Part shown: piece after piece, positions 824 to 62,600 of the stretch | Numbering within the stretch: position 1 is the stretch's first letter | How the letters are laid out: each line of letters begins with the position of its first letter | DNA from: Nereocystis luetkeana | Taxonomy: Eukaryota > Sar > Phaeophyceae > Laminariales > Laminariaceae | Reading direction: 5' to 3' | Length of the DNA: 64,000 bases | Assembly: GCA_031213475.1 (NCBI GenBank) | Contig: JARUPZ010000019.1 | Location: 3,126,770 to 3,190,769 of the forward strand | Position numbers and translations under genes: made by a program | The notes under the pieces: generated by a model | Told to the model about the DNA's origin: nothing | The model's input: only the letters and a program-made list of their open reading frames with translations | The model's database searches: none

Positions 824-1162
824 AATTCCCATAATACTTCGCCTCATGTCCTTTTCCCTTTACAGATGAGAGACGTCGTTAACGTATTACTATTAATATT
901 GATAGTGCGTACCAGGTACACATGTACGTACCTACGCCAGGTAGACTTTATACCTGGTGTATCATACCATATCCTATCATACATACCACACGAAGAGCAC
1001 CTTGCGCACCGAAAGCAAGACCGCTGAGTCCTCGTTACAACAGACAGCTCCCCAAGGAGCAGCAGCAGCCGTAGCAGCAGCAGCAGGCAGCAGCATCGTC
1101 TCACACTGCTGGACAAGTCGGCCAGTTAACCAGTCAAGTCTGTCAGTCAGCCTACCAGTCAG
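824..1162. other. Intergenic, CAG-rich, no gene seen
   Basis: It holds one TATTAATA (891-898), one TACCAGGTA (910-918) and a CAG-type microsatellite near 1058-1093. The short frames here are translations of the CAG tract on both strands and are not credible genes. Confidence 0.6.
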
Positions 1163-2101
1163 TCAGTAGGCCAGAGATGCAACGCCATGCCCTCCCCTCA
1201 CCAGAGACAGGGCGGTGGCCTCCTTCCTCTTCCGCGCGGCGTTGCGCGCCCCTTCCGCTATCTTGCGCCTGGTCTCCTCAGAGTGGCGCCCCCCCTTATT
1301 CCAAGGCTCCTTCCCCTTGTTCGCCGCCGAGATCCGCGCCCTGCTCGTCGCCGTGTGCGGCCGCCCGCCGGCCTCGGTGATAGTCACGGTGCTCTCCTCC
1401 CCCTCTACGGACTGCAGGACCTCTGCAGATGCGGAGACGTTCATGCTAACGCCCACGGCATGGGCGAAGTGTGGCGGTGCTCTCCCGCGAGAGCCTACCG
1501 GAAGCAGATGCGCTGTCATCTGCCAGCCGTGCCGTCGCTGTCGGCAGCGAAGGTTATGATCGTACTGACGGTGGTTATGGTGATGCTGGTCATGTAGTTG
1601 ACCCCAAAAGGAGACTGGCCCCGTCGACCAACCGGAGCTGGAGTGGTGATGTGGGTCGCTGCCGATGCTGCTGCCGCCGCCGTATGCTGAGCCTCCGGCA
1701 GCAGCGGTCAGACCGTCGTGCTTCCGGCTCTGTCTTCGGACGGAACAACGCACGGCGGGGGAGAATGGGGAGGCAGCGAACCCGGCGGCGGCGCCGGCAG
1801 CAGCGGTCGGCCATGGTCGGCCGAGGTGGCCCGGTGCGTGCGTAGCAGCATCAGCTGTGGGCATGACAACCATCAAAGCTGCCGTCATTAGCGATACCAT
1901 TCCGGTTCGCCATCGCCAAGTCGTGAATATTTCACCTGTTCGCATGCATCGGGAATGGTCGTCGATGGCCTTAGGCCTGTGTGGTCCCATGGTCTTCGCC
2001 AAGGGTAATTGAAACTTGAAACACGGGAGAGCATCATGTGTTGTCGTTTTTCTGGTTGAGGAGTTCCACTTCAATGGGAGGCGTGATTTCATAGGGATCA
2101 A
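1163..2101 (-). CDS. Protein with C-terminal NUMOD3-like motif
   Basis: A 312-codon frame runs on the minus strand. The last 60 residues contain ARISAANKGKEPWNKGGRHS followed by EETRRKIAEGARNAARKRKE. This matches the NUMOD3 pattern (SxxNKGKxxWNKGxxHSEETxxKI), a small DNA-binding module known from GIY-YIG homing endonucleases and found on its own in some plant and algal proteins. No GIY-YIG or other nuclease motif is visible. The middle is His/Ser/Gly-rich and unfamiliar. The start is uncertain: in-frame ATGs lie at 2101, 1945 and 1900. The last begins a hydrophobic run (MVSLMTAALMVVMPTADA) like a signal or organelle-targeting sequence ending in ADA-A. It is convergent with the hydroxylase-like gene to the right only in the loose sense of lying upstream on the opposite strand. 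DNA binding is inferred from the motif; a role in an organelle is a guess. Confidence 0.55.
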   Translation of the reverse strand: MIPMKSRLPLKWNSSTRKTTTHDALPCFKFQLPLAKTMGPHRPKAIDDHSRCMRTGEIFTTWRWRTGMVSLMTAALMVVMPTADAATHAPGHLGRPWPTAAAGAAAGFAASPFSPAVRCSVRRQSRKHDGLTAAAGGSAYGGGSSIGSDPHHHSSSGWSTGPVSFWGQLHDQHHHNHRQYDHNLRCRQRRHGWQMTAHLLPVGSRGRAPPHFAHAVGVSMNVSASAEVLQSVEGEESTVTITEAGGRPHTATSRARISAANKGKEPWNKGGRHSEETRRKIAEGARNAARKRKEATALSLVRGGHGVASLAY

Positions 2102-2440: not shown

Positions 2441-2611
2441 ATGAACGACATGCCGCCCAAGACTGAGGCTGGCTCACTTGCCGAAGGAACGCCCGGCCAG
2501 AAGGAGCAACATCGGCCGTCCCAAGCGGCCACTAACACCCATCGTGTGCCTCCTCAGCCGGCTGGAGTGGCGCCGCAGCCGCCGCCGCAACCTCAGCAGC
2601 AGCAGCAGCAG

Positions 2612-2642
<31 letters not shown>

Positions 2643-17571: not shown

Positions 17572-17580
17572 TGTTTAAGA

Positions 17581-18050: not shown

Positions 18051-18506
18051 CGACCACAGATAACCACCACCCCGGGGGATGAAAAAAGCACAACGCGAAA
18101 TGATCTTCCCATCGGGGGTGGTTTTTTACGTCAAACACGGTACTGATAGGCAAACAGCCTGGAAGGGGATAGGTGTGTCCCAAGCCCCAAGCAACTCTTA
18201 ACAGACTCTAGAGGGAGGGGACAGAGCAACCCCGTCTCCTCTTCCCTCGCCACTAACAAAATTGTTGTGTTTTCAAGGATCGTTCGTACCAGGTAGAAGG
18301 ACGTGCCAACAGTGGTAAAGATGATGTATATATATGCCGAATGATTCGTACCAGGTACCAGGTATATCGTTATTTTGGGTTAATATAGTCATCAATCATA
18401 GCTTGGTGTTATTGTAGAGTCTATAAATTATACTGGCACGTAGCTTAGTAATTTTTTATTGTAGACTATGAAATGGAGCTCTACCGGTATACGAGGTACA
18501 TATTAA

Positions 18507-19302: not shown

Positions 19303-19397
19303 TTAACCCCTTTAGAACCGCAGTCCCGTTTTGGGGACAAACTACTTGAAGTTAGAATCGTTTGTCCCCAAAACGGGACTGCGGTTCTAAAAGTTAA
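19303..19397. mobile_element. MITE family B, best copy
   Basis: A 95-bp fold-back element starting TTAACCCCTTTAGAACCGCA and ending CTGCGGTTCTAAAAGTTAA. The arms carry AGTCCCGTTTTGGGGACAAA and its complement. It is flanked by TA at 19301-19302 and 19398-19399, so its target duplication is TA, as in Tc1/mariner-type elements. It codes for nothing. Confidence 0.8.
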
Positions 19398-19795: not shown

Positions 19796-19799
19796 ATCA

Positions 19800-24035: not shown

Positions 24036-25914
24036 CTCACATTAACTCACAATACAATGCAGTCCGTGGTCGCAGGACAGGCTTCAATAACTCTGGAGTG
24101 GAAGAAATACCTCGGTAGTAAAACAGAGGCAAAAACAAAAAACATACGCACTCCACCACGGCGGACACCAGGGAAGCAAAAAGGAGACTATTAATAGCAG
24201 ACAAAAACCTAAAAAAGAAGATGAAGCGAAGCAAAATAAATAAAAAACAAACAGAAGCAGGTAGCAATACGCAAAAAAGGCGAAACGGACCATACTAACA
24301 GAGACACAAAGAGGTACAAACGGGAATGAAAGAAATATGAAAAAAGAGGGGACAAAAAAGCGATAATCACGGGCGGGGGGGAAAAAGAAAATACGAAAGG
24401 CAGGCACTGGAGCATACAGACACGCAAAGTTGCCCAGGTGGCACCATGCTAGTTACTTGGGTCTCAAAGAAGGGAGTGCATCATGACGATGATGGCCATA
24501 ACCAGGCTTCAGTCTGTTGGGCAGACCGACCCCCCCCCCCCCCCCCCCCCCCATCCCTCCTCGCCCCCCTTTCGCCCCCCCCCTCTTCCCCGCCATTCTG
24601 CGCACTCGCGTTGGCGTCAACGGCTGTGGTCGTGGTTGCAGCTATTCTATGCCGTCCTGCCGATGCCTCCTTCTCATCTGTATGCCATTTCCGCATGAAG
24701 GCCTCCGCCCCTTCCTCGATCCGTTGGAACCATCTGCCGGCTTTCTGTGCTGCCTCGCGCCACCCTTCGAGCTTGATGCCGAACTCCTTGAGGTCCTCCT
24801 CAAGGTACCTCGTCCAGTCCTACTCCTGCCCTCCGGAGTAACCCTTACCCCCAACCATCTCCCCAAACATCACCCTCTTCGGCAGACGCTCCTCTCCCAT
24901 GTGTGTCACAAAGCCCGCAAACAAGAGCCTACGTCTGCGTACCGTCGTCTCAACGCTCTCAGATTTTGTCCTGAGAAGCGCGCTAGCATAGGATAGAATG
25001 TGGTCTTCGCGCTTTCATTTTCGCCAGCCGATGCATCGGAGGAGCATCTTGTGGTGGACCTCCCGTAGCCTACCGTAATCAGTCTTGCTCGGGCCCCAAG
25101 TAACGCAACCGTAGAGCAACGTTTCGATCACCTCGGCTCTCAGCATTCGCACCTTCAGGCGTAGGCGCACACCCGGGCGGTCATAGATTTCCATCTTATA
25201 CCATCCGAAGCATGCCCATGCCCTCTGGAGTCGACGCGTTACCTCGACACTTCTGCCCCTCCAATCTGCGCTGATAGCCCCGCCCAGATACACAAACTCG
25301 GTCGTTTGTTTGTACACTTGGCCGGCTGCGGTGGCGGTGAACGGCACGTTCCCCCCATCTTTCGTTTGCAGACACATTATCTCCGTCTTGGCCTCCGAGA
25401 CCGTCAGGCCGAAAGCGGCCCATGCAGATACGATCACCGTCATCATCCTCTCCAGGCCGTTGGGTGATCTCGATACTATGCCCGCATCGTCAGCATAGAG
25501 CATAGCCCACAGTGTCTGGGCCTCTTTACCATTCCCCTGTCCGTCGGCGTGCCCGGCCCGTGCCTTCCCCCTCTTCTTTTTCTTCTTCTCCTGCTTTTGT
25601 TGGAGTTGCACCAAGCTGTCCGTGATGGCTTTATCAGCAGCGAAACGTTTCTCCGCCACACGCAGCACCGCTGTAAAAAACATGTTGAACAACAATGGCG
25701 CGAGCACACACCCTTGCCGTAGGCCCTGCTTCACGTCGAACATATCTGAGCACTCGCCGTCATCCAGCCGCACGCATGCTCGCATGCCGTCGTGGAATTG
25801 GCGGATAACGGTGAGCATTCTAGGTGGCACGCCAAAGCGAGCCAAGACAGCCCACAGGAGGGTTCGGTCGACGGAGTCATAGGCTTTGGTGAGGTCGACA
25901 AAGCACATGAACAC
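23999..25914 (-). mobile_element. LINE, 5'-truncated copy
   Basis: Near-identical to 28724-30616 but inverted. The 3' end (left) has a (GTT)n tract, which is an (AAC)n tail on the element strand, preceded by the shared CTCACATTAACTCACAATAC. The 5' truncation at 25914 abuts a family F SINE. Non-LTR elements often truncate this way during target-primed reverse transcription. Confidence 0.85.
25012..25914 (-). pseudogene. LINE reverse transcriptase, C-terminal half
   Basis: 299 residues start inside RT motif A ([20 protein letters not shown]). Motif B ([17 protein letters not shown]) and catalytic motif C (AMLYADDAG) follow, then the thumb. The Trp before motif C is intact, unlike in the full-length copy. 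A TGA after CIGWRK ends the frame, and in-frame coding-like sequence continues beyond it. The endonuclease and RT N-terminus are missing, so it cannot move itself. Confidence 0.8.
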
Positions 25915-26150
25915 CTATAGCTCAGTAGGTAACACCTTCACATTTGACGTCGTCCAGGTCACGGGTTCGAACCTCACTTCGAACGTTTCTTTTACAGAAA
26001 CGCTTGCGCGTGCACACCTAAAAACACACATCTCCCTGGATCGCCAGGTAATGAAACGAAGCGGGTAGGTCAGCGTACGGACGTATATACGGTTCCGACG
26101 CCCCACAGACCCCGCCGTTCAGAGGGGGGGAGAGTGTTATAAGCATTACC
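25915..26150 (+). mobile_element. tRNA-headed SINE-like family F, copy
   Basis: Head CCTATAGCTCAGTAGGTAAC holds a canonical pol III A box (TAGCTCAGTAGG) and GGGTTCGAACCTC is a B box 40 bases on. The body has TTTCTTTTACAGAAACG, GTGCACACCTAAAAACACAC and GGTTCCGACGCCCCACAGAC. The end is GGGGGGGAGAGTGTTATAAG. A cloverleaf does not close, so it is not a working tRNA. Confidence 0.7.
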
Positions 26151-26246
26151 TTGGGCTGGGTAATCGATCGATCTCTTACCCCTATAGCTCAGTAGGTAAC
26201 ACCTTCACAAGGGGTAAAAGACCGATCGATTACCCAGCCCAAGGTA
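26146..26246. repeat. Family F fold-back with A-box loop
   Basis: TTACCTTGGGCTGGGTAATC on the left pairs with GATTACCCAGCCCAAGGTA on the right around a loop holding TATAGCTCAGTAGGTAACAC. Its right arm was the insertion site of the full-length LINE. Confidence 0.75.
26209..26246. repeat. 38-bp target-site duplication, left
   Basis: AAGGGGTAAAAGACCGATCG through CCCAAGGTA is repeated exactly at 30617-30654, on both sides of the LINE. Confidence 0.85.
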
Positions 26247-26381
26247 GTCGTACAGAGATACTCTCCCTCGGCTGCTCCCCGGCCGGGGTGGAGCTCCGGC
26301 CTGCGGCTTCCCCAACACGTGCTAGAGCTCCCAGTGGAGCGCAGCCTTGACCTTTCTAGCGCGTCTAACTAGCGTTCGAGC

Positions 26382-27785: not shown

Positions 27786-27788
27786 ACC

Positions 27789-29138: not shown

Positions 29139-29141
29139 GCT

Positions 29142-34502: not shown

Positions 34503-35200
34503 TTATACTTTGTTTGTCCTTTTTCACTCATCATGTTATTACTTGATGGCTTGCCTCTTTTATCGCATCTATCATGAACGATCTTTGCCTTCTTCGCGTT
34601 CTTTTGCTTCTTTGCGTGCTTGCTTTATCGTGCCACACTTTTTCCCCCGGAAAAAGAAAAATACAAATTACATTCGTACAGCAGGTGTGGGGTCCGCAGT
34701 CCGGCGTTACAGCAGTACTTACTTAGTACCACCACACTACAACAGCAAGCAGTACTACTACTTGATGCTCTATCTTACGATGACAGACAACAACAGCAAG
34801 CAACAGCAAGCAGCAGCAGCAGCACAACATGATCGTTCATGTCGACAGGAATGGCACAGCATCATCATCATCAGTGCTGCAGCACATCAACGCGGCACAT
34901 TTTCTTTCTTCTTGTCAATAATGATCTGTAATTTTTGCGAAGACATCAATCTTGACGTTGATGTTCCATGCGATGGTTGCTGGTTCGACGAACGTATATA
35001 CACATGATTCGATTGCTCGTGATTCGTACCTGATTCTTTACGGTTGAATCTTATCTTTGAATCTGGAAAACAGGGGGTCTCGTGTCCCACAGGTATGTAC
35101 CTGGTATTATTACTTTTTCACTTTTTTACGTTTTTTTTTCAAGGAACTTCCCGCCGCTGCCAGGCCTGCATATTATGTACCTGGTAACACAGCAGAGCTA
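34503..35200. other. Intergenic, no supported gene
   Basis: A 165-residue frame (34510-35007) spans a CAG/CAA-rich patch and has no recognisable domain. Confidence 0.35.
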
Positions 35201-35305
35201 TTACGGGGAAACATAGTTAATAGGACCTATGGTATACATAAAAACCTATATATTTGACCATTTTTACTAACAATATTTGGTCCTATTAACTATGGTCCCC
35301 CGTAA
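35201..35305. mobile_element. MITE family A, isolated copy (105 bp)
   Basis: TIR about 27 bp, starting TTACGGGGGACCATAGTTAA in the consensus and ending with its complement (CCCCCGTAA). The core is AACCTATATATTT, ATTTTTACTAACAATATTTG. TA lies on both sides (35199-35200 and 35306-35307). It is too short to code; ends and TA duplication fit a Tc1/mariner-type MITE. Twelve further copies lie between 42.9 and 63.2 kb. Confidence 0.85.
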
Positions 35306-36161
35306 TAGTGTAGGGAATGTAGACTGAAAATGTTACGTAACAAACGCTACTCGAATTTAAGGCTTCTAAACTCGCTTTCCACCACACTAGTTTTTAGTTT
35401 CAGCTCGGTGTCCTCTTCCTGCCTTTCGTTTGGTACCTGACTCCCTTTTACAACCAAGTCGTCACAAGTTAACCAAGGTGGGTTAGGTGCACGCTGTGCC
35501 GGTGCGCAGATTCCCGGTGCGTCCTTCTGTGATGATGATAGCAAAAGCTACAGCAGTAGTAGTATGTTGTACTTGACGTACCAGTACGGAACATCACAGG
35601 CCATGATCATAGAATGTCCACACACACAGGCCTTCTACCTGGAGGTGCTTGGTGAGCTTTGCCGGAGGCTGTAAAGCTGCTGCTGTATGTAACAGCCCTT
35701 GGTAAAGTCCAAGACGCGTCGAGCCTTCGGTGGTACAGAGAGATAAGACAGGGAGAGAGGTATAAAGAACAGCAGTACATACAGCAGCGCCTCGATGTTC
35801 GATATTGCTGTAGATGTACGAGTACTGCATTGTTCCGCTTCACTAGCAGAGAGCCCAAGAAGTCCATTTTTCTTTCTATACAATAAAATAGATACCGGTA
35901 CAGGAGTGCCTATAATATCAGGACAAATAAAAGAAGCTCCTCCTCGTATCCTGCTCTCTCCTGCTCTCCTTGACTCGAGCGAACCATCAGACATCGGCAG
36001 CCCAGCAAGCACCCCTCACCTATCGTCCTGGGGAGAGAACAACGTCATCAGCCTACCGAGAAGAGAGATAGCGCTACTATACATACAGCAGCACTACTAC
36101 TACTACTACTACTACTGCTCGTACCAGCAAAAATAAGAGGCGGAGAGCGGCGGGCGGCATC
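35306..36161. promoter_or_regulatory. Upstream region and 5' UTR of the annexin gene
   Basis: No other gene is credible here. The last 100 bases carry a (CTA)n run and a GGCGGAGAGCGGCGGGCGGC block just before the annexin ATG. A clear TATA box is not visible. Confidence 0.3.
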
Positions 36162-36254: not shown

Positions 36255-39200
36255 GTATGGATATCATATCGTATGAGTGAATATACTGCAGGCAGTGCGT
36301 AGTCGTGCCAGGTATAATTTCTTGTGTCGAAATGATGAAACACGACAATAATTATCACACACGAGGTATTATATAATACGAGCAGCATCGCGGCCGTGGC
36401 GACACGCATGGCAGAAGAAGCAAGCGCTCCTATGTGCCCGAACGCGACGTCAGAACTCAGAACGCATACGGCACGCGTGTATATAGCTTGATACTGCATC
36501 TGCACACTTGTCGTCTTTGCAGAGACAGCACTTCTGCGTATTATGGTGCGTGCTTCTTACTCGCCCTATCTATCTATGATGTTGGCGTACCTACCTGGCA
36601 TACCTACCTGGTACGAGTATGCTATACTCGTACAACGCCACAACACGCAAACTTTGACCTTGTGCCTGACTGCTGATGATGGGTGAATGATCCTCTCATT
36701 TTTTCGTATGATGCATGCATGTGTGTACCGCTGTAGTACGAGTATAACAGAACATCAGACTCGCCAAGAATATCAGCACCAAACAGCAGGCACCCAAGGC
36801 GATGAGGCCACCCACTTTCTATGCTATCGTGCTCTCTGCTTGTCATTTTCTCTCTGTCTGTTGTGCTCTTATTGTGCGTGGTGCTTCAACCGTTTTGATA
36901 ACGACTGTGTCTCTCCTCTCTCCTCTCTCCTCTCTCCTCCTCCGCCTTCTCTCGCTCGACCCGACACGAGGTCGGTCAATGCAATCAATTGTAGTTTTTG
37001 CGGGAAATTCATGCGCTCGTGTGAGATAACGCACGGTAAAATAATCAATGAATTTAAAATCAAGCAAATGTGTGTGAGATGGGTCATCTCAGGTTCGACA
37101 TGGGTCTGCAGCAAAATTCTCTTCATCTACGAGTACGAAGCGTGTATGAGTATGTAGCGTGTATATAGGACACGCCAGGTATCGGTGATGCTCGGCACGG
37201 CGAGCCGAGCGGAAGTGATCGAGAGGCAAGACACGAGTCATCTCACATGCCAGCTGTCATCAGTAACTACTTGGCGATGGAGGCTGGTAATTTCCCGCTT
37301 CAATAGAGGGGTTTCCCCGTAAAAAAAAACCGTCGTAAATCGTTGCGAAGTTCGCCGTGACGTTTGAACCACAGCAGTCTGGCGAGTAGTCTGCGGAAAT
37401 GATGTAGATCTCGACGTTCGGCCCGCTTTTTCATCTATTAATACCAGGTATTATATTTCCCAGGGATGCGTATTTCCTCACCCGGAACCCAAAAATTTCC
37501 GGGAAACAGCCTTTTTCAGCTTTTCCAAAAAATTTCCCCTATTTCCTCTCGTTCGAGGAAAAAAAGGCGTAATTTTGGGGGGGGGACAAAAAATATCATC
37601 CCCGGGTGGCCCATGCACTACATAAAGCACAAGTATAAGATTCGTTCAGGCCTTCGGACAGACATTTTCGATCATTTTCACTCTACCGGCACCAGGTGCA
37701 CAGCAGTAGTAGCAGTTGCGCACAATGCAAGTACTTTAGTAAATGTTCATCGGTTTCAGTTGATTTTTAATTGTTCATGTCCTCGTTGATTTCGTCCTGC
37801 AGCAATTTGATACTGGAATAGTAGGACTACTGCCGCAGTACTGATAGCGATCTCTCATGTACGAATATACTTATGATATGTCGCGAGGTAAATCAGCAAC
37901 ACAAAGCGCAAAGCAGGAAGTGAGCAGTTACAGCAGTGCGCTGCTTCGTACGCGTGTAGCGATCGCGACCTTATCCGCGACTAGAAACTGTAAACATGGA
38001 CGCTGGACGCCTCAACGAAATCCCAGCGTCCCAGCTGCATCTGCGCCGAGTTCACCCTTTCCATTCGAATATGTCAGCTCATATATATGATTATATTTTA
38101 TATTGTATTAATAGTACATTCCTTCGATGATTCCGCTCGCCATAACATCCAATTCCTCGCAGCAAAACATCACATGCGTACGCAACGCAATGGGCAGCGC
38201 TACATTCCCAAATAGTCGCAAGTGCACAGCTTAGCAGCGTTTGAAAAAAAAAACGGGGGTTTCCATTCTATATGGAGGCGTTATTTGCCCGGGGATAGGG
38301 GACGCGAAGAATTTCCTCTGAAAAAAATTATTACCTCGAGCCCTATTAATTTCGGGTAATTACCGCTACCGGGAAATACGCATCCCTGGTTATTGTGCCG
38401 ATCGCGCATTCCTCATACTCTCATCACCTACCACAGATACAAAGCATGAACCCGCAAGAACTAAAACCTCCGGTTATCAACCGGCGCTGCTGCCGTTGTA
38501 CACCCCTTCCATTCGAGGTTCCAATCACGTGTGTGTTGATTACTGTATGTATGCCTGAAGCTCGTACAGCAGCAGTTGCTGCTGTAGTGGTATAAAACAC
38601 TCGTATCTGGACAGCAAGCTTCAAGAACGCAAAATCATATGGAGCGATCCTCCGTCCTGCTTCTTCGTACATCATACTCGTACGAACGCCATGTATATGC
38701 CCCGAATGACCCGCTACATACAACCTCAAGCACAACCTGCTGCGGTGCCGCCGCCTGCGTTATTCCCCCCCCTGCTCATCATCCTCGTCCTTTTCATCTG
38801 CCTCCTCCACCCCGCTCGAACCTCCAACGACAGCAGCAGCTCCCCCACCTCTCGTGCCCACAAATTCCAACTCCGGTGAGCGTCCCAGCAAGCCAAAGCT
38901 ATCACCCAGACGCACTGGAGAGCTGTTGCTCCCGGTCGCCCTCTCAGGCCCAACGCCATCCCCCTCGACCCCCAGTCCGAAATGCTACGGCTCTCCACAG
39001 CCTTGGCGATGGTCTCGGCTCGGCGGGGTGCCATTGCAAAGGGAATGTCTTTTGCGCTCGCTGTTGGTGTGGTTGCATGCCCCTTGCTGCGTGCACCCGA
39101 GGACATGTTTCCTCTCGTCGACAAGAAACTCAACATGCGATCAGCGCAGAGCTGTAGATGGGTTTCACACGAACAGAAAGCAGGATCTATCTCCCGCGGT

Positions 39201-45200: not shown

Positions 45201-48200
45201 GGGGGCATTTTTTTGCTGTTTGCTGCGCCGACGACGCCATTGTGGGGCGGACGTCCTGCACAGGTTTCTCTCCCGTGTGGTTGTGCTTATACTTAGTACT
45301 GTTACGCGGGATCATAGTTAATAGGACCAAATATTGCTAAGTAAGAATGGTTAAATATTTAGGGTTTTTTGTATACCATAGGTCCTATTAACTATGCTAT
45401 GGTCCCCCGTGATATGGTGTACACACCGAGGTGCTGGCTGTAGGTCGGTGTAAATACCTCGGGGTTCTATTCACGCGGAATGGAGTGGCAAGACCTGGGG
45501 TGTGACGTTGAACGTGTTTGTCATGAGGCGATATACTTCTGTCTACCAGGGGGAGGGGACCTGGTATCCACGTGTAACGAACTCCTTTGAGATTTCTTTG
45601 CTTTTTTCTTCCTGCCATCTGCTGTATGCGTATTGCCGAGCAACGTGGTGTGACAAATGATTTGCATGTGATGAGATGGACAAGAAAAAAAAAACACACG
45701 CAGGTTTTTTTTTGTTTTGTTTTAAGAGTGTTACATTTTTTACCAGGTACCATCATACCGGTGCGTGCTCAAACACAGATATGATGTGTACGTACCAGCA
45801 ACGCTTGATGCTTGTGTGTTGTCGATGCTCGCCGCGATGCTTGATGCTTGGTGCTTGGTGCGATGTATCGATGCTATGTGCGATACGATGTCATGATGCT
45901 TGCATGATGATCTATGCATGACTGCTGTGACGTGATCAAACAATGCCCCCTACACCCCGCCCCCCCCACCGCCGCCACCGCCACCACTACCACCACTACC
46001 ATGACATGTAAACTCTGGACTCTGGTAGGACTTCATCGCGTCGAGGGATGTGGACATCGTGCGCCAGGCGACCAAGGGCATCGGCACGAAAGAAGACATG
46101 CTCATCAACACGCTCTGCAACCGCACCAAGAAGCAGCTCGATGCCATCGATTTGCGCTACCACAAGAAGGTGCGTGCCCCGTCGCTATTCCGCAGTCCGG
46201 ACCGCCCGTGCTTTTGCTTACTTGCGGGGGGGTGGGGGAGGTGGAAGGGCGGGGGGTGGAGATGGGGGGGGGCGGTGTACTCATTATCATGCATGGCCGT
46301 AGTCGTATGACCGTAGACCCTCGCATCCCTACAATGCCGGGACGAGGAATGTCGGGTTTTCGCCGACCAGGCAGATTTTGCTTGCACCAAGCGCGAAGCG
46401 CCGTGAGGCACTGGGCGAGTCGCATGAAGGGTGAGCTGCATCCTATTAATACTAAGAACCGCTTTGGAGGCGGATTTTCTTGCATATGGCAGCATCAATA
46501 AATTGATTTAATTTCTGATAAGGCCAGTTTCCAGAGACAGCAATGGGTTTACTATGTAACTGCCTCGTGGGTGCCCCGCCATATACACACTACGTGATAC
46601 GATCATCCCCCCTTGTGGGGAGTAAAGGTTCTCCCCGCACAAAAATGGTCTATAACTTGACCGCCAGCCGTGGAAACCGCCAAAAAAAAACAATAAAAAC
46701 GGCACCCTTGCTGCCTAGCTCACGCAATGAGAGGCGTGTTTTACAGCGTCGTCGCCAACCGACGCCAACCCAACATATATATATATATATATATATACAT
46801 AGGCGGGGGGGAGGGGGGATATAGCCCTTGGTGGCTCGTGCAAACCGCCCACGCGCAGGCTACGTACATCCGTAGCGTCATCATTGTCGCCGTATATGTA
46901 TACGTGCATGCCGTTACCGCCCCGGCTCGCTCGCTGTGTCTGGTCGGTCGCGGACGAAAATATGCTCCGCGTAACGTTTCACTTTTCACACGCATGCGCG
47001 CTAGGAGAGCGGCCTGCTGGAGGTACATGAAGTGATCAGTGTCCATGACCAGCGTGCGGTGCAATAGACTGAGTATCAACCTCTCGAATCGGTCGAGCTC
47101 ACAGCTGACGTACGGATTGCACTAATTTTATTACAAAAACAAATCGCGAGAGTTTGCTCCTGTATATATGTATACCCTGTCTTATCTTTATGCCTTGTCT
47201 TTGGTGTATCGTATGATTTTTTTTTTTTGTTGGTTTGCTCGTTTGTTTTAATTGTTTTGCTTTTTTTTCGTTCGTTTTGTTTGTTGTGATATATATATAT
47301 ATATAATATATATATATATTATATATATATATTAATGTTAACCGTATGCACTTGCAGTACGAGAGCAGCCTGCTGAAAGTGGTGGCCGGCGACGTCGGCG
47401 GCGACTTCGGAAAGATGATGAGGTACGCCCTGCTCGATACCGATGCCTACGGAGCGGAAATCTTCACCCTCGCCACCAAAGGTAAGTAAGCGACAACAGA
47501 GCTAGCCGCCCCTAGGCAGAGGAGGGAGGGGAAGGGGGTAGGAGGGGGAGGGGAGGGGAGAGGGAGGGGGAGGGGGAGGGGGAGGAGGACGGGAGGGAGG
47601 GAAGGGGGGGGGGGAGGGGGAGGAGGATAGGAGCGGGGGGGGAGGGGGGGGGGGACGGCAGGGGGGAGGGAAGGGGGCGGGGGGGGGGGGGGTACTCATT
47701 TGTTGCTTGCCTTGAGTCATACGACCATTGGGGGGGGTGCACTCGATATCATGCATGACCGTAGTCGTATGAGCGGGAGTCAATGCCTCTGTTTAGTAGT
47801 AGTCTGTTTACACGTGGTATGTGCTTGGTAGTTCGTACCGCGAGCCGTGCATTCCTCGGGTCTAGGTACTCACGCGAAACGGGGCGTGGAAAGTAGCAGG
47901 TGGGGGTATACTCTGTGTGACAACGGCGAATCATACCATACATACCAACTCGATTTTTTTGTTTTAAAAAAAAAAAAAAAAATTGCGAAGATGTATATGT
48001 CGTGCGAACATGTTGTTAGTAAAACTCTTGAGTACGTGCCTGCTAGTAAGAGGTAGTAAGAGTATGATGCAAATGGCCGATCTCATTCACGGCTGATATA
48101 TTTTACCTGGTATATATTTTCAGAAGCTACGCTTTGGTATGATACGCCATCTGTGAATTCGCCCCCCCCCCCCCCCCCCCCCCCCGCTACGAGGCAGAGG

Positions 48201-50559
48201 CAGTTACATAGAATACCCAGTGCTGTGTCTTAGAAGTGGCCACACCAAAAAACAAATGAATTATTTCGACTCTTGTCCTCCGTATACACGTGCAAGGAAG
48301 TCCGCCTCACTGCCGCTTCGCACCTGGAGAAAGTAATCAATGTCTGCCTGGTCGGGGAAAAGCCGACGTGCTCCGTCCCGGCGTTGTTGGCGTATCTACG
48401 TCCATACGACTACGGCCATGCATGATAATCAGTACACACCCTCACCCCCCCCCCCCCCCCCCCCCCCCGCTCCCCTTCCCCTCTCTCCTCTTTTTGGTGG
48501 TCCCGTTGGACTCGGTCCGCTGAAGGGATGGGCACGAACGAAGAAGTGCTGATTGACCTAGTGAACACGGTTTCGAACGCCCAGATGGCTGCCATCAAGC
48601 AGAAGTGGGAGGCCAAGGTGATGAGATAGGCTTTGAAGCGATCGGACGCCGCCCTTTCTTTCTGCTGTTGTTGCATGGCGTGTTGGTGGTGGTGGTGGCG
48701 GTATTACTGTATTGTTGGTGCTGTTGGTGGTATGGGTAGCGTAGCTGGTGGTGGTGGTGGTGGTAGTAGTAGGCAGATACATAAGCTTTGTCGAATCCCA
48801 CCTGGTGGTGTGGAGGGGGGGGGGGGGGGCGGGGTATTCATTTAGCTTGAATCGATGTTCCGCCTATTAATAGTGAAGAGGATTTGTTGGATATGTTTTT
48901 TTGTGATAACGTACCGTACTTTCGACATGAGCGGTCGGTCAGCCGTCGTGGTGTACGCAATACTAATACATCGGCTGGTAAGGTGTGCCCGGTGCTCATG
49001 AGATGATTTCGCTAACGACGGCGCGATCGATACAACCTACGGTCGACACCCATCTACGCTATCCTAGGAGATAGACGGTGGCCACAGGTGGCCAAACAGG
49101 ACGGGAATAAGATTTAGCAAGAAATATTTATGTAATATATGGAAACAGCGTAATGAGCGCCCGAAAATGTTGGAAATGTCTCTATTAGGAATAGGAACGG
49201 CGGTCCGTCTCGAAAGGGATACGGTGTCAATTGACTAAGGCAAGCAACAAATAAGTACGCTCCCCCGCTCCCCTACACATGTATGCCAACAAATTAAGTC
49301 ATTCTCCCCCGTTACCCTGAAACGTAACGCATACGCCAAAAGGGTAAAGTTTCCTGCAGAAAATCTGTTTCTTGTGCGATGCTTTTCCGCAGGCAGGCCG
49401 GCCGACCGGCCACACTCGAAGCGACCAACAGACCGACCACTCATAGCGACCGACCGACCACTCATAAACGACCGACCGGCTTACTACTCACAACGACCGA
49501 CCGGCTTACCACTTATAACGACCGACCGTCCGTCTTACCACTCCTAACGACCGACCGGCTTGCCGCTCCTACCTACCGACTGACCGACCGCCCGACCCTT
49601 TATCGGCTGACCGAACCGCAGAACAACAAGTCCATGCTCGACTGCCTCAACTCGGAGCTGAGCGGCAACGCGCGTAAGCTGATGGTTATGCTGCTCCTCG
49701 GGAAGAAGAGCGAATCGCTGGACGTGAGTTGCCGGCCGGAGTTGTTCCGTCCTTCTTCGGTCACTGTTTTCCTTGCTCTTGCTTTTGTTCTCGCTTTTGT
49801 TTTTGGTCGTGTTATCTGTTCTTGGCCTGGTTCTTGGTTTTTCAGAGTTTGCTTTAGTTTTGCTTCTTGTTTTTGTGGTTTGTGATTCGTTCTTGTCCCT
49901 TTGTTCTTCTCGTTTGTTCTTGTTTTTTTGTTTTGTCCTTGCTCTTGTCTTGGGGTGCGAAGGCTTGGCTAGAGGTAACAAACACGACACGATTGGGTGG
50001 TATGGGACGGGTCCAACTGCATACTGCTTGGCGCAGGTTTTGTCCCCGGTTGCTCACGATCGCTCACGCGTGTGTTGTCTTGGTACCGCCGTGTTTAGTT
50101 GTGCTCTTGCCCCGCTCACATGCTTCTCAGCTACCCCTGCCACGAGAGGACTATTATGGGGGACCATAGTAAGTAGAACCAAATATTGTTTGTAAAAATA
50201 GCGAAATATGCAAGTTTTTGTGTTTACCATAGGTCCTATTAACTATGGTCCCCCGTAATAGTCGTTCCTCCCGAGAAACAACAGCAGTAACGCCTATTGG
50301 TACTATTTCGGGGGACTACGATAGTAAATAGGACCTACGGTACACGTAGAAACCTGTATATTCACCTATTTTGCTAACAATAATTGGTCCTATTTACTAT
50401 GGTCCCCCTTAGTATCAACAGAGAGGAAACGGGGACACCCCGTGACAGTTGCTCTTGCTCTTGCCTTCCTTGGCGTTTTCCTCGCCTCGGTCCCTTGTTA
50501 TTGTCCCTGCCACTGCCCGAACGCGCAAAAATAATCGGAAAGCCTGTGTATGCCGCCGG

Positions 50560-50604
<45 letters not shown>

Positions 50605-53600
50605 ACGCCGAGGCCGACCGGGGCACCCTTGCCCCGCCGAAAGGGGAGAGGCGGGGCGGGGGAGGGGGGGGGGGGAGGGAGGGAGGGTCAAGTGAACAAG
50701 AGCAATACTCGTACATCATGCCGCTTGTCAACCCACCCCCACCCCACGAAAGATTAGAGGGATCGGCGATTTCCCCCCCCCTTAAGGGACCGCACCCTTT
50801 ACAATAAAACTATTACGGGGGGGGCATATTAAATAGGACCTACGGTACTCGCCGAAACCTATATATTTCGCTATTTTTAGGGACAATATTTGGTCCTGTT
50901 TACTATGGTCCCCCGAAATAGATATGACGGTGGAGATATCCATGGTGGATTCTGGCTTACTCATATCATAGCCCCTGTGATGTGCGCGGGGTCGCGGATG
51001 GGATGCGTGGTCAATGGTCAGATGACTAAGGCGAGCAACATATGAGTACGCCCCCCCCCCCCCCCCCCCCTGTAATGTGTAATGTGTATCGTTGCGAGGG
51101 GAATACAGTAGTCAGACGCAAAATACGTTAGCGGTACTGTAAAAATAGGGGGGCACAGGGGAGATATATGTTTTCATTTTTGGGGACCATGGTGAGTTCT
51201 GGTTGGTGCTTCGGTTCCCTAGTGATAGGATACTATTAATAATAGATAGTAGAATAGATAGCATACTAATAGATAGTAGAATAGATAGCATACTAATCAA
51301 CAGTGGAATAGATAGGATACTAATAAATAGTAGAATAGATAGAATACTAATAGATAATATAAATAGATCGGATACTAATAAATAGTAGAATAGATAGGAT
51401 ACTATTATGTAGTATCATAGATGGGATACTAATAAATAGTAGAATAAGATACTCTTAAATAATAATAGTAGAAAATATAGGATACTTTTAAATAGTAGAA
51501 TAGAGAGGATACTAATAAATACTAGAGTAGATGAGACACTAATATTGCCCAGAAATAATGCCTAACGAGGCCCTCGACGCGCCCAGAAGGAGACCGGTCT
51601 CACCTCACTAGAGGGGAACATATGAACAGTATTGAGACCCAAATGAGGTGTGTAAAAGTACCTGGTGCGACGTGGGTCCATCGTGGGTTCTGATCACTAT
51701 GCCCCCCCCCCCCCCCCCGCCCGGTAATAATGGCACGACTCTCGACGGAAATATAGGGGGCGTTTATACATAAATATGAAGACCCAACGGTCCTTACATT
51801 TCCGACCTAGAGCAGTCCTTCTATTTCCACTCAAGACCTTCGCGCCGCACTCCACCTCACCACCCCACCCCCCCTCCCCCCAAGCCCCACGCAACCGCTT
51901 GACCCCCTTTTCTTTTTGTTGTTGTTGTTGTTGTCCCTCGCTGCTTGCTTGCTCGAACCGAATCCGTCCGCGAGAGCAGTCCGACCCTTCGTTGGCCGCG
52001 GAGCAAGCGGCAGCCCTGCACGACGCAGGCGTTAATAAGTTGATCGGTACCGACAACGACGTCTTCCTTGACATCCTGGGGGGCCAGTCCCGCCCACAGA
52101 TTCAGGTGAGGGTGGTGGTGGGTGGTGGTGGTGTTGGTGGTGGTGTTGGTGGTGGTGTTGGTGTTGGTGTTGGTGGTGGTGGTGTTGTTGGTGGTGTTGG
52201 TGGTGTTGGTGGTGTTGGTGGTGTTGGTGTTGGTGTTGGTGGTTGTGGTGTTAGTGGTGATGGTATTGGTGTTGGTGATGTTGATGGTGGTGGTGGTGAT
52301 GGTGTTGGTGCTGGTGGTGTTGGTGGCGGTGGTGGCGTTGATGGAGGTTTTGGTGGTGGTGGTAGTGATAGTGATGTCGGTGTTGGTGGTATTGGTATTG
52401 GTGGTGATGTTGTTGATGGTGGTGGTGGTGGTGGTGGTGTTGGTGGTGTTGGTGGTGGTGTTGGTGGTGTTGGTGGTGTTGGTGGTGTTGGTGATGGTGT
52501 TGGTGGTGGTGTTGGTGTTGGTGGTGGTGGTGGTGGTGGTGTTGGTGTTGGTGTTGGTGGTGTTGTTGGGGGTGTTGGTGGTGTTGGTGGTGTTGGTGAT
52601 GGTGTTGGTGTTGGTGGTTGTGGTGTTAGTGGTGATGGTATTGGTGTTGGTGATGTTGATGGTGGTGGTGGTGATGGTGTTGGTGCTGGTGGTGTTGGTG
52701 GCGGTGGTGGCGTTGATGGAGGTTTTGGTGGTGGTGGTAGTGATAGTGATGTCGGTGTTGGTGGTATTGGTGGTATTGGTGGTGATGTTGTTGATGGTGG
52801 TGTGGTGGTGGTGGTGGTGGTGGTGTTGGTGGTGGTGATGGTGTTGGTGGTGATGGTTCTGGTGGTGTTGGTGGTGGTGTTGGTGGTATTGGTGGTGTTG
52901 GTGATGGTGTTGGTGTTGGTGTTGGTGGTTGTGGTGTTAGTGGGGATGGTGTTGGTGTTGGTGATGTTGATGGTGGTGATGGTGTTGGTGGTGTTGGTGG
53001 TTGTGGTGATGGTGTTTGTGGTGTTAGTGGTGATGGTGTTGGTGTTGGTGATGTTGATGGTGTTGGTGGTGATGGTGTTGGTGTTGTTGGTGGTGTTGGT
53101 GGCGGTGGCGGTGGTGGCGTTGATGGAGGTTTGGTGGTGGTGGTTTTGGTGGTGTTGGTAGTGATAGTGATGTTGGTGTTGGTGTTGGTGTTAGTATTGG
53201 TGGTATTGGTGGTGATGTTGGTGTTGGTGTTGGTGGTGGTGGTGGTGTTGGTGGTGGTGTTGGTGGTGGTGATGGTGTTGGTGGTGATGGTTTTGGTGGT
53301 GGTGGTGGTGGTGTTGGTGGTGTTGGTGGTGATGGTGATGGTGTTGGTATTGGTGGTGGTGTTGGTGGTTGTGGTGTTAGTGGGGATGGTGTTGGTGTTG
53401 GTGATGTCGATGGTGATGGTGGTGATGGTGTTGGTGGTGTTGGTGGTTGTGGTGTCAGTGGTGATGGTGTTGGTGTTGGTGATGTTGATGGTGTTGGTGG
53501 TGATGGTGTTGGTGTTGTTGGTGGTGTTGGTGGCGGTGGCGGTGGTGGCGTTGAGGGAGGTTTGGTGGTGGTGGTGGTTTTGGTGGTGTTGGTAGTGATA

Positions 53601-56600
53601 GTGATGTTGGTGTTGGTGTTGGTGTTAGTATTGGTGGTATTGGTGGTGATGTTGGTGTTGGTGTTGGTGTTGGTGTTGGTGGTGGTGGTGGTGGAGGTGG
53701 TGTTGGTGTTGGTGGTGATGGTGTTGGTTTTGGTGGTGTTGGTGTTGGTGGTGGTGTTGGTGGTGTTGGTGGTGTTGGTGATGGTGTTGGTGTTGGTGCT
53801 GGTGCTGGTGTTGGTGGTGATGGTGTTAGTGTTGGTGATGTTGATGGTGATGGTGGTGATGGTGTTGGTTGTGTTGGTGGTTGTGGTGATGGTAGTGATG
53901 GTGTTGGTGGTGTTGGTGGTGTTGGTGGTGATGGTGGTGTTGGTGTTGGTGGTGGTGTTGGTGGTTGTGTTGTTTGTGGTGATGATATTGGTGATGTTGA
54001 TGGTGTTGGTGGTGATGGTGTTAGTGTTGGTGCTGGTGGTGTTGGTGGCGGTGGCGGTGGTGGCGTTGATGGAGGTTTTGGTGGTGGTGGTGGTGGTGGT
54101 GGTGGTAGTGATGTTGGTGTTGGTGGTGGTATTGGTGGTATTGGTGGTGATGTTTTTTTTTTTTTTTTTATCCTCCGGCGGATTGGTAAAAATAAAGCTT
54201 AAGCTCACCACATGTTGATGGTGGTGTGGTGGTGATCGTGGTGATCGTGGTACGGGTGGTATTTGTGTTGTTGTTTTTTGGTGGTGGTTTGTGATGGTTG
54301 TTGGCAGCGGTGGTGTTTCTTGAGACCCTCTCTATCCCTCCGGCGGCCTCTTCCCCCCCTTTGTCGTTCTCCTGTGTTCGCGTTTTTATGCCGAAATAAA
54401 CCTCGATGATGTTCTCTGCTTCACTCCGTTTTCGAGCCTTGTCTCCCGCCCCGTTTTCCATGTTTTGGAGGCCTTTTTTTCGATTCCTTTTTTCGACGTT
54501 CGATTCTTTTCCGATTTCTTTTTTCCCTTGTGCATCAATTTCCACTCCTTTTTCGATCTTGCTTCTTGCTCCTCCTTCTTTTTTTCTTTCGCTCCTTTTT
54601 TTTTTTCGCTCACTTTTTCCTCTCGTCGTTTTTTTGTTGTTGTTTGGTTTGGTTTAGTTTCGATTTTATCTTTTTCCGTGACTGGTGCTCTTTTTTTCGT
54701 TTTCGTTTTCGTTTTATTTCTTCGCCGTGTCTTACCTTTGTTGCAGGCGATCAAGACCGCGTACGAACAAAACTACAGCATGTCCCTCATGAGGGCCGTC
54801 AACAAGAGCTGCAGCGGGACCTACAAGAAGTGCCTGCTCGCCTGCCTCTTCCCCACCTCCGAGGTGATGAAAACCGCTGCGTATTGCCGCTCTGCCGTTA
54901 TTAATATTCTGGCCGTAGATATAGTCCCCATTTCGACTCTGTCATTCGAATTAAACGTTCATTATTTTCCTGGCCAGAGAGAGGGAGAGTGGTATTTACT
55001 TACGAGCGAAACGAGTCGCTGTTATTTGCACGGCATATACATACGTAGGCGGGGGGGAGGGGAGGGGAGGGGAGGGGGAGGGGGAGGGGGGGGGGTGTAC
55101 TCATTATCGTGCATGGCCGTAGTCGTATGACCATAGACCCTCGCATCCCTACATTGCCGGGAGGGGGGGGGGGTCTTTCGTGCTGGGTTCCATTCGGGGA
55201 TAGAAGTTTCCTCGCTTTTTCTACTGGTGTTTTGTAGAGTCAGTCTCGAGCGACCCAGCTGGCGGCGGCGACTCACGCAGATACCTGCTGCTGTACCAGT
55301 TCGTATACGCACCACGCTGGACGGAAAAGTGTAAGGAGCTTTTGGTATTGATGTTAATGTGTCAGCAATCCTTATGTTTCCGTCCAGAGACCCTGCATTC
55401 AAGTACAGTGTTAAAAGTGGTCCCCTTCTGCATGGTGCACCGGTTGCCCGCTAACTATTACGGAGGGCCATAGTAAATACCCTGGTAGGACCAAATATTG
55501 TTATTTATGGGGGACCATAGTTAACAGGACAAATATTGTTAGTAAAAATGGTTAAACATATACCTGGTAGGTTTTTATGTATACCATAGGTCCTGTTAAC
55601 TACGGTCCCCCGTAATAGTAAAGAGAGGTAAGTATATACCTGGTAGTTTTTTTGTGTATAACGTAGGTCCTATTTACTATGGCCCCCCGCTAACTATTAC
55701 GGGGGACCATAGTTAATAGGACCTACGGTACACACGAAAACCTATATATTTTCATATTTTTACCATCAGATATTTGGTTCTGTTTACTATGGTCCCCGCT
55801 AACTAGTGCCTGTGGGATGAATCGCTTGGCACAGAGGGGGGGTTCACCAGCAGGGTGGTATTGATAGTGTGCGGAGTAACCTAGTGCCGGTTGGCGCTAT
55901 GTATAGTGCCGGTGTTGTTGGCTGGCGGATACCATACCGGGACTATATGGAGGGGCCGGCACTACTACTGCATGTATAAACCGAAACGCGAGTTCCTAGC
56001 GATCGCTATCCCATATTGTTAACAAAAGCTGTAGTCACTATAATCCATGCCACAAATCGGTGGGAGGGAGGGAGGGAGGGAGGGAGGGGGTATGGGGGGG
56101 AAAAGGGCGAATGGGAGTTGTGGGGGGGGAGGGGGGAGGGGAGGGCAGGGGGGAGATGGGCAGGGTTGGGGAATCGGGCGGTCGGGGGAGGGGGGGAGGG
56201 GGGGAGGGGGGGGGGGGGTGTACTCGATAGGAGAGATGTACTCGATCTCATGCATGGCCATAGTCGCATGACCATAGACCCTCGCATCCCTACAATGCCG
56301 GGACGGAGCATGTCGGGTTTTCACCGACCAGGCAGACATTGCTTGCACCAAGCGCGAAGCGCCGTGAGGTGTCTGGCGAGTCGCATGAAGGGTGAGCTGC
56401 ATCCTACTAAGAACCGCTTTTGAGGCGGACTTGCATATGGACGACAGCTTCAATGAGTTGATTTAATTTCCGATGTAGGCATTTCCAGAGACAGCAATGG
56501 GAGTACTATGTAACTGCTTCTTGGGTGCCTTACCTAGAACACTACGTGATGCGATCATTCCCCATTGTGCGAAGTAAAGGTTCTTTACCTCGCACAAATG

Positions 56601-59600: not shown

Positions 59601-62600
59601 GATACCCTCCTGCGCATTCCATTCCATACCATACCATACACCCCCCTGCGCAACGCCTACCCCACCCCCCCCTGGCCTGGCCTAGCCCGCACATCGGTGT
59701 TTCGCATGAAAACGTGCTTGCTTGCCCGCGGTGCTTGTTTGCTGCGTGCTCTCTTGCTTGGTTGCTTTTACTTGTTTTAACTTCTTCCGCTCCCTCACGG
59801 CGTGCTCGACGGCCTGCTTGTTATTCCTTTTTCTTATTATGATTCACTTTTTCTTGCGTTTACTTATGCTGGTACTCACTGACTCGACGTGTTTTTCTCC
59901 CCCATGCCTATTTTCCTGTACACCTATAATACGTAAACAGAGAGAACATCTGGACATACATATATTTATATACTCCCCTATGCCTATTTTCCTGTACACC
60001 TACAATACGTAAACCTGAGAGAACTTCTGGACATGAATATATATATATACTCCCCTATGCGTATTTTCCTGTACACCTACAATACGTAAAAATGAGAGAA
60101 CTTCTGGGCATATACTCGTACACATATATATACACCTTTCGCTTCCCGAGGTTTCCACTTACTCTCACTGACTCGACGTGTTTTTTTTTATTTCCCTTGC
60201 ACCTATAAAATCGTTATCAGAGACTTCTTGACGTACACCATGCTTCCCGAGGCCGACTTCGACGCCCTCATGCTGAAGGAGGCCATGGACGGCTTCGGGA
60301 CGAACGAAGGGCTCATCATCAACATCCTGGCGCCGCAGAGCAACGCCCGCATACTGGCCGCCAAGGCCAGGCACGACCAAAAGGTAACACCATTTCCAGG
60401 AGGCGGGGGGGGGGGGTGGGGGGGGGGGGGGGGGGGGGGCGGGTGTGCTCGATATCATACATGGCCGTAGTCGTATGGCCGTAGACCCTCGCATCCCTAC
60501 AATGCCGGGACGGAGCGCGTCGGGGTTTTCACCGAGCAGGCAGACATTGATTACTTGCACCGAGCGCGAAGCGAAACGTGAGGTGTCCTGGAGGGCGAGT
60601 AGTCGCGCGAAGGGTGAGCTGCGTCCTGCTAAGAACCGGTTGTCAGGCGACTTGCATGTGGATGACAGCTGCTGCAATGAGTCAATTTATTTTCGGGCGT
60701 GGCCACTTCCAGAGACAGCAATGGGAGTACTATGTAACTGCCTCTTGGGTGCCTTGCCATGAGCACTACGTGATACGAGCATTCTCAGTTATGCGGAGTA
60801 AAGGTTCTTCACCTCGCACAAATGATCTAGCTCGACAACCAGCTGTGGCGACCGCCAGAAAAAAAAAAAAAAAACGGTACCCTGGTCGTGTAGCTCACGT
60901 AGTGAGCGGCATTTTTTACAGTGTCGTTGCCAACCGAACCCAACCCAACCAGGGTTCCAGGAGGGGAGGGGGGGGGGGGGTCAGCAGGCGTGCATGCTGA
61001 GAGTATACCCCCGCCTCCTCCACTGCCGACGCCTCGCTTCGCGTGAGTGCCTATTAATAGTAGACTCGCCGAGGAATGCACGGCCCGCGATACAAACCGT
61101 CAAGCGCATACTACTCGTACACAGAGGCATTGACCCCCTCCCCCTCCCCTCCTCCCTCCTCGTCCCTCGTCCGTCCCCCCCCCGCCCCCCCTCCCCGTCT
61201 CCCCCAACCCCCCCCCCCCCCCCCCCCACCCTCCTCCCCCCATCCCTCCTCCCCCTCCCTCCTCCCCCCCCCTCCTCCTCCCCCCCCTCCTCCTCCCCCC
61301 CCCCCCCCCCCCCCCCCCCCCACTCCCCTCTTGGTCATTGCCTTACCCCTGTGACGACGTGCGTTGTTTCTGTTCGGCAGTACCCTAAGCCTTTGATCGA
61401 CCGTCTGAAGTCGGAGCTCAGCGGGGCCCTGGAGGACGTCGTGGTGTCCCTTCTCAAGGGACAGAGGCAGGAAGATGTGGTGCGTATCTGGTACAAAACA
61501 AAAAAAAAACAGGGCGTGCGGATTGTTGTGAATAGTAGCAGCGTGTGTCGTGTATTCAAATTCCGGGGATATACCTGGTGATACGTTTCCCCCAAGACAT
61601 TTTGTTTTTTTCTTGGGCGCCGGAAGATGTTCGTTTCGGGACAAAGTTTTACGCTAAGACACATTTGTGTTTTTTTTCGTTCCAAGACATTTGTTTGGTT
61701 AGGATATACTTTTTTTTCACGTTCTCGTGTACGTACACTCTCCGCTGTTGCGGGGGGGGGAGGGGGGGGGGGGGTGTACTTGATAGGAGAGATGTGCTCG
61801 ATCTCATGCATGGCCGTAGTCGTATGGCCATAGACCCTCGCATCCCTACAATGCCGGGACGGAGCATGTCGGTTTTCACCGACCAGGCAGACATTGCTTG
61901 CACCAAGCGCGAAGCGCCGTGAGGTGTCCGGCGAGTCGCATGAAGGGTGAGCTGCATCCTACTAAGAACCGCTTTTGAGGCGGACTTGCATATGGACGAC
62001 AGCTTCAATGAGTTGATTTAATTTCCGGTGTACCAGGTAGGCATTTCCAGAGACAGCAATGGGAGTACTATGTAACCGCCTCTTGGGTGCCTTACCTTGA
62101 ACACTACGAGATACGATCATTCCCAATTGTGCGGAGTAAAGGTTCTTTACCTCGCACAAATGATCTAACTCGACAACCAGCTGTGGGCGACCGCCAAATA
62201 AAAAACAAAAAAACGGTACCCTGGTTGTCTAGCTCACGTAGTGAGCGGCATGTTTTACAGTGTCGTTGCCAACCGACGCCAACCCAACCTATAAAAAATA
62301 GGGCGGGGGGGGGAAGGGGGGGGGCTACTCATGTCGTGCATGAAGACGGGGAGCGTAACTCATGTTTTTCTTGCCTTGGTCATTTGACCATTGACCACGC
62401 ATTCCTTTCGAGACGGTTGGAGGAACTCGTGCCCGCGCTTGCCAAGCGAGACGCGGTGGGTAAGAAAAGGGTAATCCACTATTACTAGATATTATCGCAC
62501 ATGGTATATACGTATATACATTGAAAAAACTCACTTTTTTTTTGTAATACTCGCGGGCGTTTTTTTTTCTTCTCGTTTTTGTGGCTGCTCTCCCTCCCAC

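Follow-up and report, generated by a model that had tools for sequence, protein, structure and literature searches.

Excision scars of transposons are normally caught singly, and that of Sleeping Beauty is known in the form TAC(A/T)GTA. In the available portions of the papers cited here, the footprints of Tc1/mariner elements are given as 2-4 bp long (PMC7913693), the footprint is described as a product of end-joining repair and that of Sleeping Beauty is written TAG(T/A)CTA (PMC2874221), and putative footprints, 1-4 bp terminal fragments at TA, are reported for Stowaway miniature inverted-repeat transposable elements (MITEs) of the Triticeae, in a study that also covers Osmar5 excision in yeast, along with a site that was gained and lost repeatedly and one insertion adjoining an existing footprint (PMC1925063). 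For the brown alga Ectocarpus, the accessible part of the transposon paper gives 17 Mariner-Tc1 families with almost 12,000 copies, mostly non-autonomous, and the word 'footprint' does not occur in its main text as available (PMC12477816). Here we describe two palindromic motifs, TACCWGGTA (W standing for A or T) and TATTAATA, in a stretch of 64,000 nucleotides (nt) from the brown alga Nereocystis luetkeana (contig JARUPZ010000019.1, positions 3,126,770 to 3,190,769; the window hereafter). Both motifs are quite probably repair scars of excised cut-and-paste transposons that target TA, TATTAATA stemming from an element named MITE A and TACCWGGTA from a different transposon.

The motifs resemble the footprints of Tc1/mariner elements (Sleeping Beauty, Frog Prince, ZB, Tc1/Tc3) in the duplicated TA around a few terminal bases and in the central A/T ambiguity, but those footprints are known from single events, whereas the two motifs together amount to about 275,000 copies in one genome, or about one per 1.7 kb, and CCWGG has five bases and no known parent. 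The Stowaway work, as far as its available text goes, concerned an intron of a single cereal gene, whereas here a genome-wide count is joined to a linked MITE and its target motif. The likeness to Ectocarpus, judged from the accessible part of that paper, is that of a brown alga with many, mainly non-autonomous, Mariner-Tc1 copies. A limited literature search found no report of genome-wide footprint accumulation in brown algae. The kind of scar is already known; its density is unusual, and so is the failure to find a source element for one of the two. Within the literature searched, three things are new: the count, the link between scar and MITE through the target motif and through sites seen in three states, and the presence of a second scar that is more abundant and has no parent.

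Abundance and polarity of the two motifs

Copies were counted in the window, in a 264-kb sample consisting of the window and 20 further pieces of 10 kb, and in the 465-Mb assembly (1,987 contigs). The window contains 24 copies of TACCWGGTA, 12 with A and 12 with T at the centre, and 20 copies of TATTAATA, whereas shuffled sequences gave means of 0.49 and 0.68, respectively, with a maximum of 3 for each. A first-pass annotation of the window had listed 24 and 19 copies and had put the chance expectation at about one or fewer of each motif; the former count and the expectation are borne out, the latter count is corrected to 20, and the over-representation of both palindromes in the window is confirmed as real. 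The motif copies and compound sites are the following:

891..898: first of the 20 copies of TATTAATA; further copies start at 11533, 18585, 19611, 19854, 20090, 23604, 24189, 30447, 34052, 37436, 38106, 39598, 39763, 39864, 46444, 48865, 51234, 54899 and 61052
910..918: TACCAGGTA, first of the 24 copies of TACCWGGTA; further copies start at 4802, 4835, 8324, 10729, 11430, 12771, 13108, 18287, 18349, 18356, 33527, 35098, 35178, 36605, 37442, 39367, 39776, 39854, 45741, 48104, 55561, 55637 and 62031
18349..18364: tandem TACCAGGTACCAGGTA, interpreted as a further insertion that went into a TA of the first motif
24189..24196: TATTAATA in a repeat common to 30447 and 19611, all three filled; the sampled locus L046 has MITE A in a TA of the same motif
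37436..37450: compound TATTAATACCAGGTA, with one TA common to both motifs
46444..46451, plus strand: TATTAATA at the site CC-TA-CTAAG of repeat family H; elsewhere the site is empty or holds MITE A
55561..55569, plus strand: TACCTGGTA in a MITE A copy, at the hotspot TATATA^GG; the same site is found genome-wide
62031..62039, plus strand: TACCAGGTA in family H, with empty counterparts at 56475 and 8812

The genome-wide count, which the first-pass annotation had proposed as a check, places both motifs far above controls in which the pattern was read backwards: TACCWGGTA occurs 182,395 times (control 1,744) and TATTAATA 93,112 times (control 10,689). With the controls subtracted, (182,395-1,744) x 7 plus (93,112-10,689) x 6 bases amount, at face value, to about 1.76 Mb of inserted sequence. 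A third-order Markov model of the 264-kb sample predicts 2.6 copies of TACCWGGTA and 6.1 of TATTAATA, and 101 and 72 were found; CCAGG is the top-ranked 5-mer x in TA-x-TA of the sample, and forms with C or G in place of W number none in the window and 11 in the sample. Among the 20 sampled 10-kb pieces, TACCWGGTA is present in 18 (mean 3.9 per piece, variance 7.0) and TATTAATA in 16 (mean 2.6, variance 7.3), so that the counts of both are overdispersed relative to Poisson. Tandems occur five times in the sample, against about 0.7 expected under independent TA sites. A separate excess in the sample, that of TACAGTA/TACTGTA among TA-x-TA (101 against 35 expected), may represent one more footprint, similar to that of Sleeping Beauty, or a background of CAG repeats.

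The annotation had also read the motifs as insertions that turn TA into TA-x-TA, and the filled and empty pairs named for this (62030 against 56475 and 8812; 46442 against 8740; 18584 against 4293) re-aligned as claimed. A paralogue spanning the site was available for 23 of the 169 motif sites taken with flanks of 60 bp. The insertion reading held at the 11 of these with at least one paralogue scored empty; the other 12 yielded no empty copy, and each of the window positions 19611, 24189 and 30447 is spanned by two copies, both of them filled. At sites with many copies, the empty ones outnumber the filled ones: the MITE A copy at 55561 has 27 spanning paralogues (9 empty, 4 filled with an insert of 6-7 bases and 14 unclear), and, unclear paralogues omitted, 15 are empty and 4 filled at L018:7056, and 9 empty and 2 filled at 46444. 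The motifs at the informative sites are therefore insertions and not deletions, TA being the original state and TA-x-TA the derived one. A blind survey of indels between paralogues gave 443 distinct sites, 63 of them of TA-x-TA form, in which x was CGAC (11), a bare TA repeat (10), TTAA (8), A (5), C (4), CCAGG (4) or others with fewer cases. CGAC, the most frequent x overall in TA-x-TA indels of the 264-kb sample, may stem from one repeat family.

MITE A and the probable origin of TATTAATA

MITE A is about 109 bp long and has the form TA-TTACGGGGG...CCCCCGTAA-TA with long inverted repeats, the terminal inverted repeat being TTACGGGGGACCATAGTTAAYAGGACC at each end; its perfect 29-mer end occurs 14,831 times genome-wide. 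A search with 18-base ends and at most four substitutions per end located the pairs given below:

35199..35307: MITE A copy, 109 bp with both TA, proposed source of TATTAATA
43026-43140, 45300-45414, 50152-50260, 55503-55617, 55695-55804 and 62704-62812: MITE A end pairs in the window, among the matches listed

The outermost bases of MITE A are TT and AA, and set between two TA they give TATTAATA. The bases preferred ahead of the TA are T-A-C at the insertions of 40 MITE A copies fetched with their flanks (0.53, 0.66 and 0.74) and likewise T-A-C at TATTAATA sites (0.62, 0.58 and 0.53). A matrix built from 76 MITE A flanks distinguishes TATTAATA flanks from background TA with an area under the curve (AUC) of 0.778 (p=3e-30) and a log-odds correlation of 0.80, and does not pick out the flanks of TACCWGGTA (AUC 0.446, log-odds correlation -0.07). 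Duplication of the TA by MITE A is seen at L006:8192-8300, which has an empty paralogue with a single TA (L006:7871), and at L011:9283-9391 five aligned paralogues lack MITE A. The 40 copies fetched with flanks were chosen solely by the perfect 29-base end, TA included, and are not usable as evidence of TA duplication because the TA lay within the search word.

The TA of family H exists in an empty, an occupied and a scarred state. Nine paralogues in the sample are empty. Genome-wide, the site was found at 172 places, of which 100 were listed (16 reading TATTAC and 84 TATTAA) and 16 of the 16 and 24 of the 84 fetched. MITE A occupies 11 of the 16 TATTAC copies, its right-hand TA being intact in 8, mutated in 2 and truncated in 1, and TATTAATA is present in 7 of the 24 TATTAA copies; among the remaining 17 of these, 15 represent an empty site that bears a single substitution. 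The TT/AA ends, the common target motif and the three states at this TA tie TATTAATA to MITE A, and TATTAATA is thus very probably the excision footprint of this element.

MITE A would enter a TA, with a preference for TAC-TA-GTA, and duplicate it; upon excision it would leave its outermost bases behind, and end joining would yield TA-TT/AA-TA, either from a filled-in 2-nt TT overhang or from a 3-nt TTA overhang pairing via TA. The excision itself we infer from the insertion, the target motif and the occurrence of all three states at one site. The process would recur at the same sites, earlier scars included. MITE A is inserted in a TA of a pre-existing TATTAATA at L045, L046 and L048, and the L046 site without MITE A is found, with identical flanks, at 24189 and 30447 of the window. 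As the 264-kb sample contains 72 copies of TATTAATA and 18 distinct MITE A end pairs among the matches listed, the copy number of MITE A may understate its activity about fourfold. No MITE A end was found in viral contigs. A TA-flanked element of 1,015 bp at L020:412-1430, with ends GAGTGTTTG...CAAACACTC, adjoins a copy of TATTAATA and has the second TA of that motif in common with it.

TACCWGGTA and its possible sources

The flanks of TACCWGGTA have A or G before the TA, A/T at -2 and -6, and A at -5, a target motif unrelated to that of MITE A, which indicates that this motif was made by another source. CCWGG is also found inside MITE A at TATATA^GG, in 3 of 36 parsed copies out of the 40 fetched by their perfect 29-nt end; the mean divergence of these copies from the consensus is about 4.5%, a value biased low by this selection. 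The exact hotspot form with CCWGG occurs at 613 places genome-wide (308+305). The annotation had likened the A/T centre to that of Sleeping Beauty, which proves nothing alone, because TACCAGGTA and TACCTGGTA are mutual reverse complements; at the oriented MITE A hotspot, both letters are found (33 A and 67 T among 100 listed of the 613). Independence of several CCWGG insertion events is suggested by the differing positions (ATA^, ATATA^), the occurrence of both centres, the six-base forms and the forms in tandem (L088, L110). Single MITE A copies with at least three nested or separate CCWGG-type inserts were observed at L108 and L110. Among relatives of TACCWGGTA, one-mismatch forms exceed the two-mismatch background, which points to scars of a range of ages.

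By-products were searched for at the hotspot in the CCWGG orientation only. A base other than T follows CCWGG in 49 hits (CCAGGG 42, CCAGGA 1, CCTGGA 2, CCTGGC 4 and CCTGGG 0), and the 33 fetched of the 42 CCAGGG hits comprise 28 with CCAGGG+TA, 2 with CCAGGGG+TA and 3 others, one of the 33 (L089) lying outside MITE A. In the 264-kb sample CCAGGG has nine sites and TACCTGGGTA (CCTGGG+TA) none, while TACCGGTA (CCGG) has 14 sites (3.5 expected), TACCAGTA 32 (12 expected) and TACCTGTA 10 (7.5 expected). The directional six-base by-product, TA-CCAGGG-TA without TA-CCTGGG-TA, argues for a Tc1/mariner-like element starting CCAG(GG), and on balance the by-products fit ends of CCAG(GG), a stagger of 4 or 5 bases, and bases now and then lost or gained where the mismatch lies. 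Pairing of overhangs with one mismatch has been proposed for Sleeping Beauty; here two 4- or 5-nt CCAG(G) 3' overhangs would pair with one A:A mismatch, and repair would result in a central A or T. For TACCWGGTA, the insertion, its polarity at the testable sites and the directional by-product are observed, and from these we infer excision and the element itself. The motif is thus probably the footprint of another TA transposon, one that our searches did not find.

Several results weigh against this reading. No CCAGG-ended element was found in the 264-kb sample, in which TA-flanked pairs of exact 9-base terminal inverted repeats starting CC[AT]GG were solely pairs of the motif itself. Among the fetched loci, pairs matching at 14 of 18 bases and starting TACC[AT] or TA[CT]C gave 49 rows against 35 in a direct-repeat control and no CC[AT]GG-ended family. 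In the sample, copies of TACCWGG without a following TA revealed no element but one recurrent repeat word (TACCAGGCGG), which both sides of the TA have in common. Pairs of TACCAGGG...CCCTGGTA of 86-146 bp occur at 21 places and form no family, and no element was present in the 40 fetched of the 49 hotspot hits with a base other than T after CCWGG. The word TACCAGGGG followed by A, C or G has 2,388 places, of which 100 were listed and 40 fetched; these contained several repeats recurring with a constant left flank and one (TACCAGGGGAGCGGGG) with varied left flanks. The latter was rejected as a CCAG-ended element, because in an alignment of six copies homology continues across the TA on both sides, which places it inside a longer repeat that looks LINE-like (long interspersed nuclear element) to the eye. 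Low-copy elements longer than 146 bp would have escaped these searches for CCAG ends. In addition, the ratio of the two centre letters at the oriented hotspot is not 50:50, and part of the 613 hotspot copies may be descendants of MITEs that were amplified with the insert inside. Seven-base forms in the sample lack a clear direction (CCAGGGG 3; CCTGGGG 2, both with the same right flank), CGAC and the bare TA repeat outnumber TTAA and CCAGG among the 63 indels, and the 5 bp of CCWGG (6-7 bp in minor products) exceed the 2-4 bp given for Tc1/mariner footprints in the available portion of PMC7913693. The DDE_3 transposase domain (PF13358) had no match, and the 28 matches to DDE_1 (PF03184) are linked to neither scar family; around the 10 of these 28 pogo-like loci that were fetched with 1.5-kb flanks, no TTACGG or CCAGGG ends were found. 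Because no CCAG-ended element was found, TACCWGGTA is not filed as a Tc1/mariner footprint, only as working like one. The annotation's view of both motifs as Tc1/mariner-type footprints is well supported for TATTAATA, with MITE A, which the annotation mentions but does not connect with this scar, as its source; for TACCWGGTA it is the best explanation.

The 182,395 copies without a source element in the searches made, together with the evident preference for sites with A or G ahead of the TA, A/T at -6 and A at -5, would also be in line with the annotation's second alternative, a micro-insertion process of its own, in which an enzyme adds CCWGG and a duplicated TA and no element was ever present. 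It should be noted, however, that the sister motif TATTAATA behaves as an ordinary footprint in the same genome, and that the 42 CCAGGG against no CCTGGG among 49 hits, plus CCGG, resemble end-joining of a longer asymmetric sequence starting with CCAGGG, which renders such a process improbable. A special form of the transposon reading holds that the CCWGG element was once hugely mobile and is now extinct or excised from the sequenced cells. The presence of the motif within MITE A copies about 4.5% from the consensus speaks for recent activity, the excess of one-mismatch relatives for varying scar ages, and the 40 hotspot hits without an element are in keeping with such a loss; as the searches may have missed an autonomous element of low copy number and more than 146 bp in length, this form is nevertheless rather doubtful. 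The broader proposition that about 180,000 five-base scars derive from a transposon that the assembly lacks entirely or almost entirely (through cut-and-paste with loss, recent extinction or removal from the sequenced cells), or that CCWGG was added enzymatically without an element, can be entertained tentatively.

For TATTAATA, a parent other than MITE A might be sought in a TTAA-targeting, piggyBac-like MITE with TTAACCCTTTTAG ends (e.g. window 19313-19389), which is present in the genome, is flanked by TTAA, and in one copy lies within TATTAATA (L014:8651-8751). However, piggyBac excision is free of footprints and restores the target, according to the available part of PMC2874221; the empty state at testable TATTAATA sites is TA and not TTAA; and the flanks of TATTAATA match those of MITE A. 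With empty paralogues reading TA, and a precise restoration of TTAA not encountered, piggyBac was rejected as the parent, this origin being highly improbable; more likely, the piggyBac-like MITE used a TTAA that was already there. TTAA-flanked copies whose ends are of the TTAACCCTTTTAG type were seen at window 19313-19389, L005:387-463 and L014:8651-8751. Equally remote is the idea that the motifs are ancient functional sites, for protein binding or methylation, that were lost in some copies, or an assembly artefact. Palindromes are often protein targets, CCWGG is a methylase site in bacteria, and 12 of the 23 testable sites have no empty paralogue, but empty copies outnumber filled ones where copies are many, loss would need to remove exactly x+TA every time, the motifs are present in 18 and 16 of the 20 sampled pieces, and tandem re-insertions exist.

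Under the preferred reading of both motifs as transposon scars, the copies are numerous enough to show, from one genome, which targets a transposase prefers, what by-products end joining yields and how the activity of the transposase is distributed over time, and they permit the counting of jumps instead of surviving copies. CCWGG scars without a visible element would offer a means of detecting transposons that are gone from a genome.

Other features of the window and sampled loci

Two DDE_1 matches at G000:C34:4443781-4450013 (L029, L030) lie in opposite orientation within a long inverted repeat. Within the window, a GGT-rich array of 2 kb at 52111-54149 has periods of 6 and 9 bases and long open frames throughout, and a large inverted repeat at 42516-44891 spans 2.4 kb, each arm being 200 bp long or longer. 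Two reverse transcriptase copies, apparently LINEs, are found in opposite orientation at 24806-29839, a stretch of 5 kb that contains numerous matching inverted ends. On the minus strand, 1163-2119 contains a frame of 318 amino acids with NUMOD3 matches, whose 32 hits include a diatom as well as Hapterophycus and Ectocarpus, these two each covering about 22% of the query.

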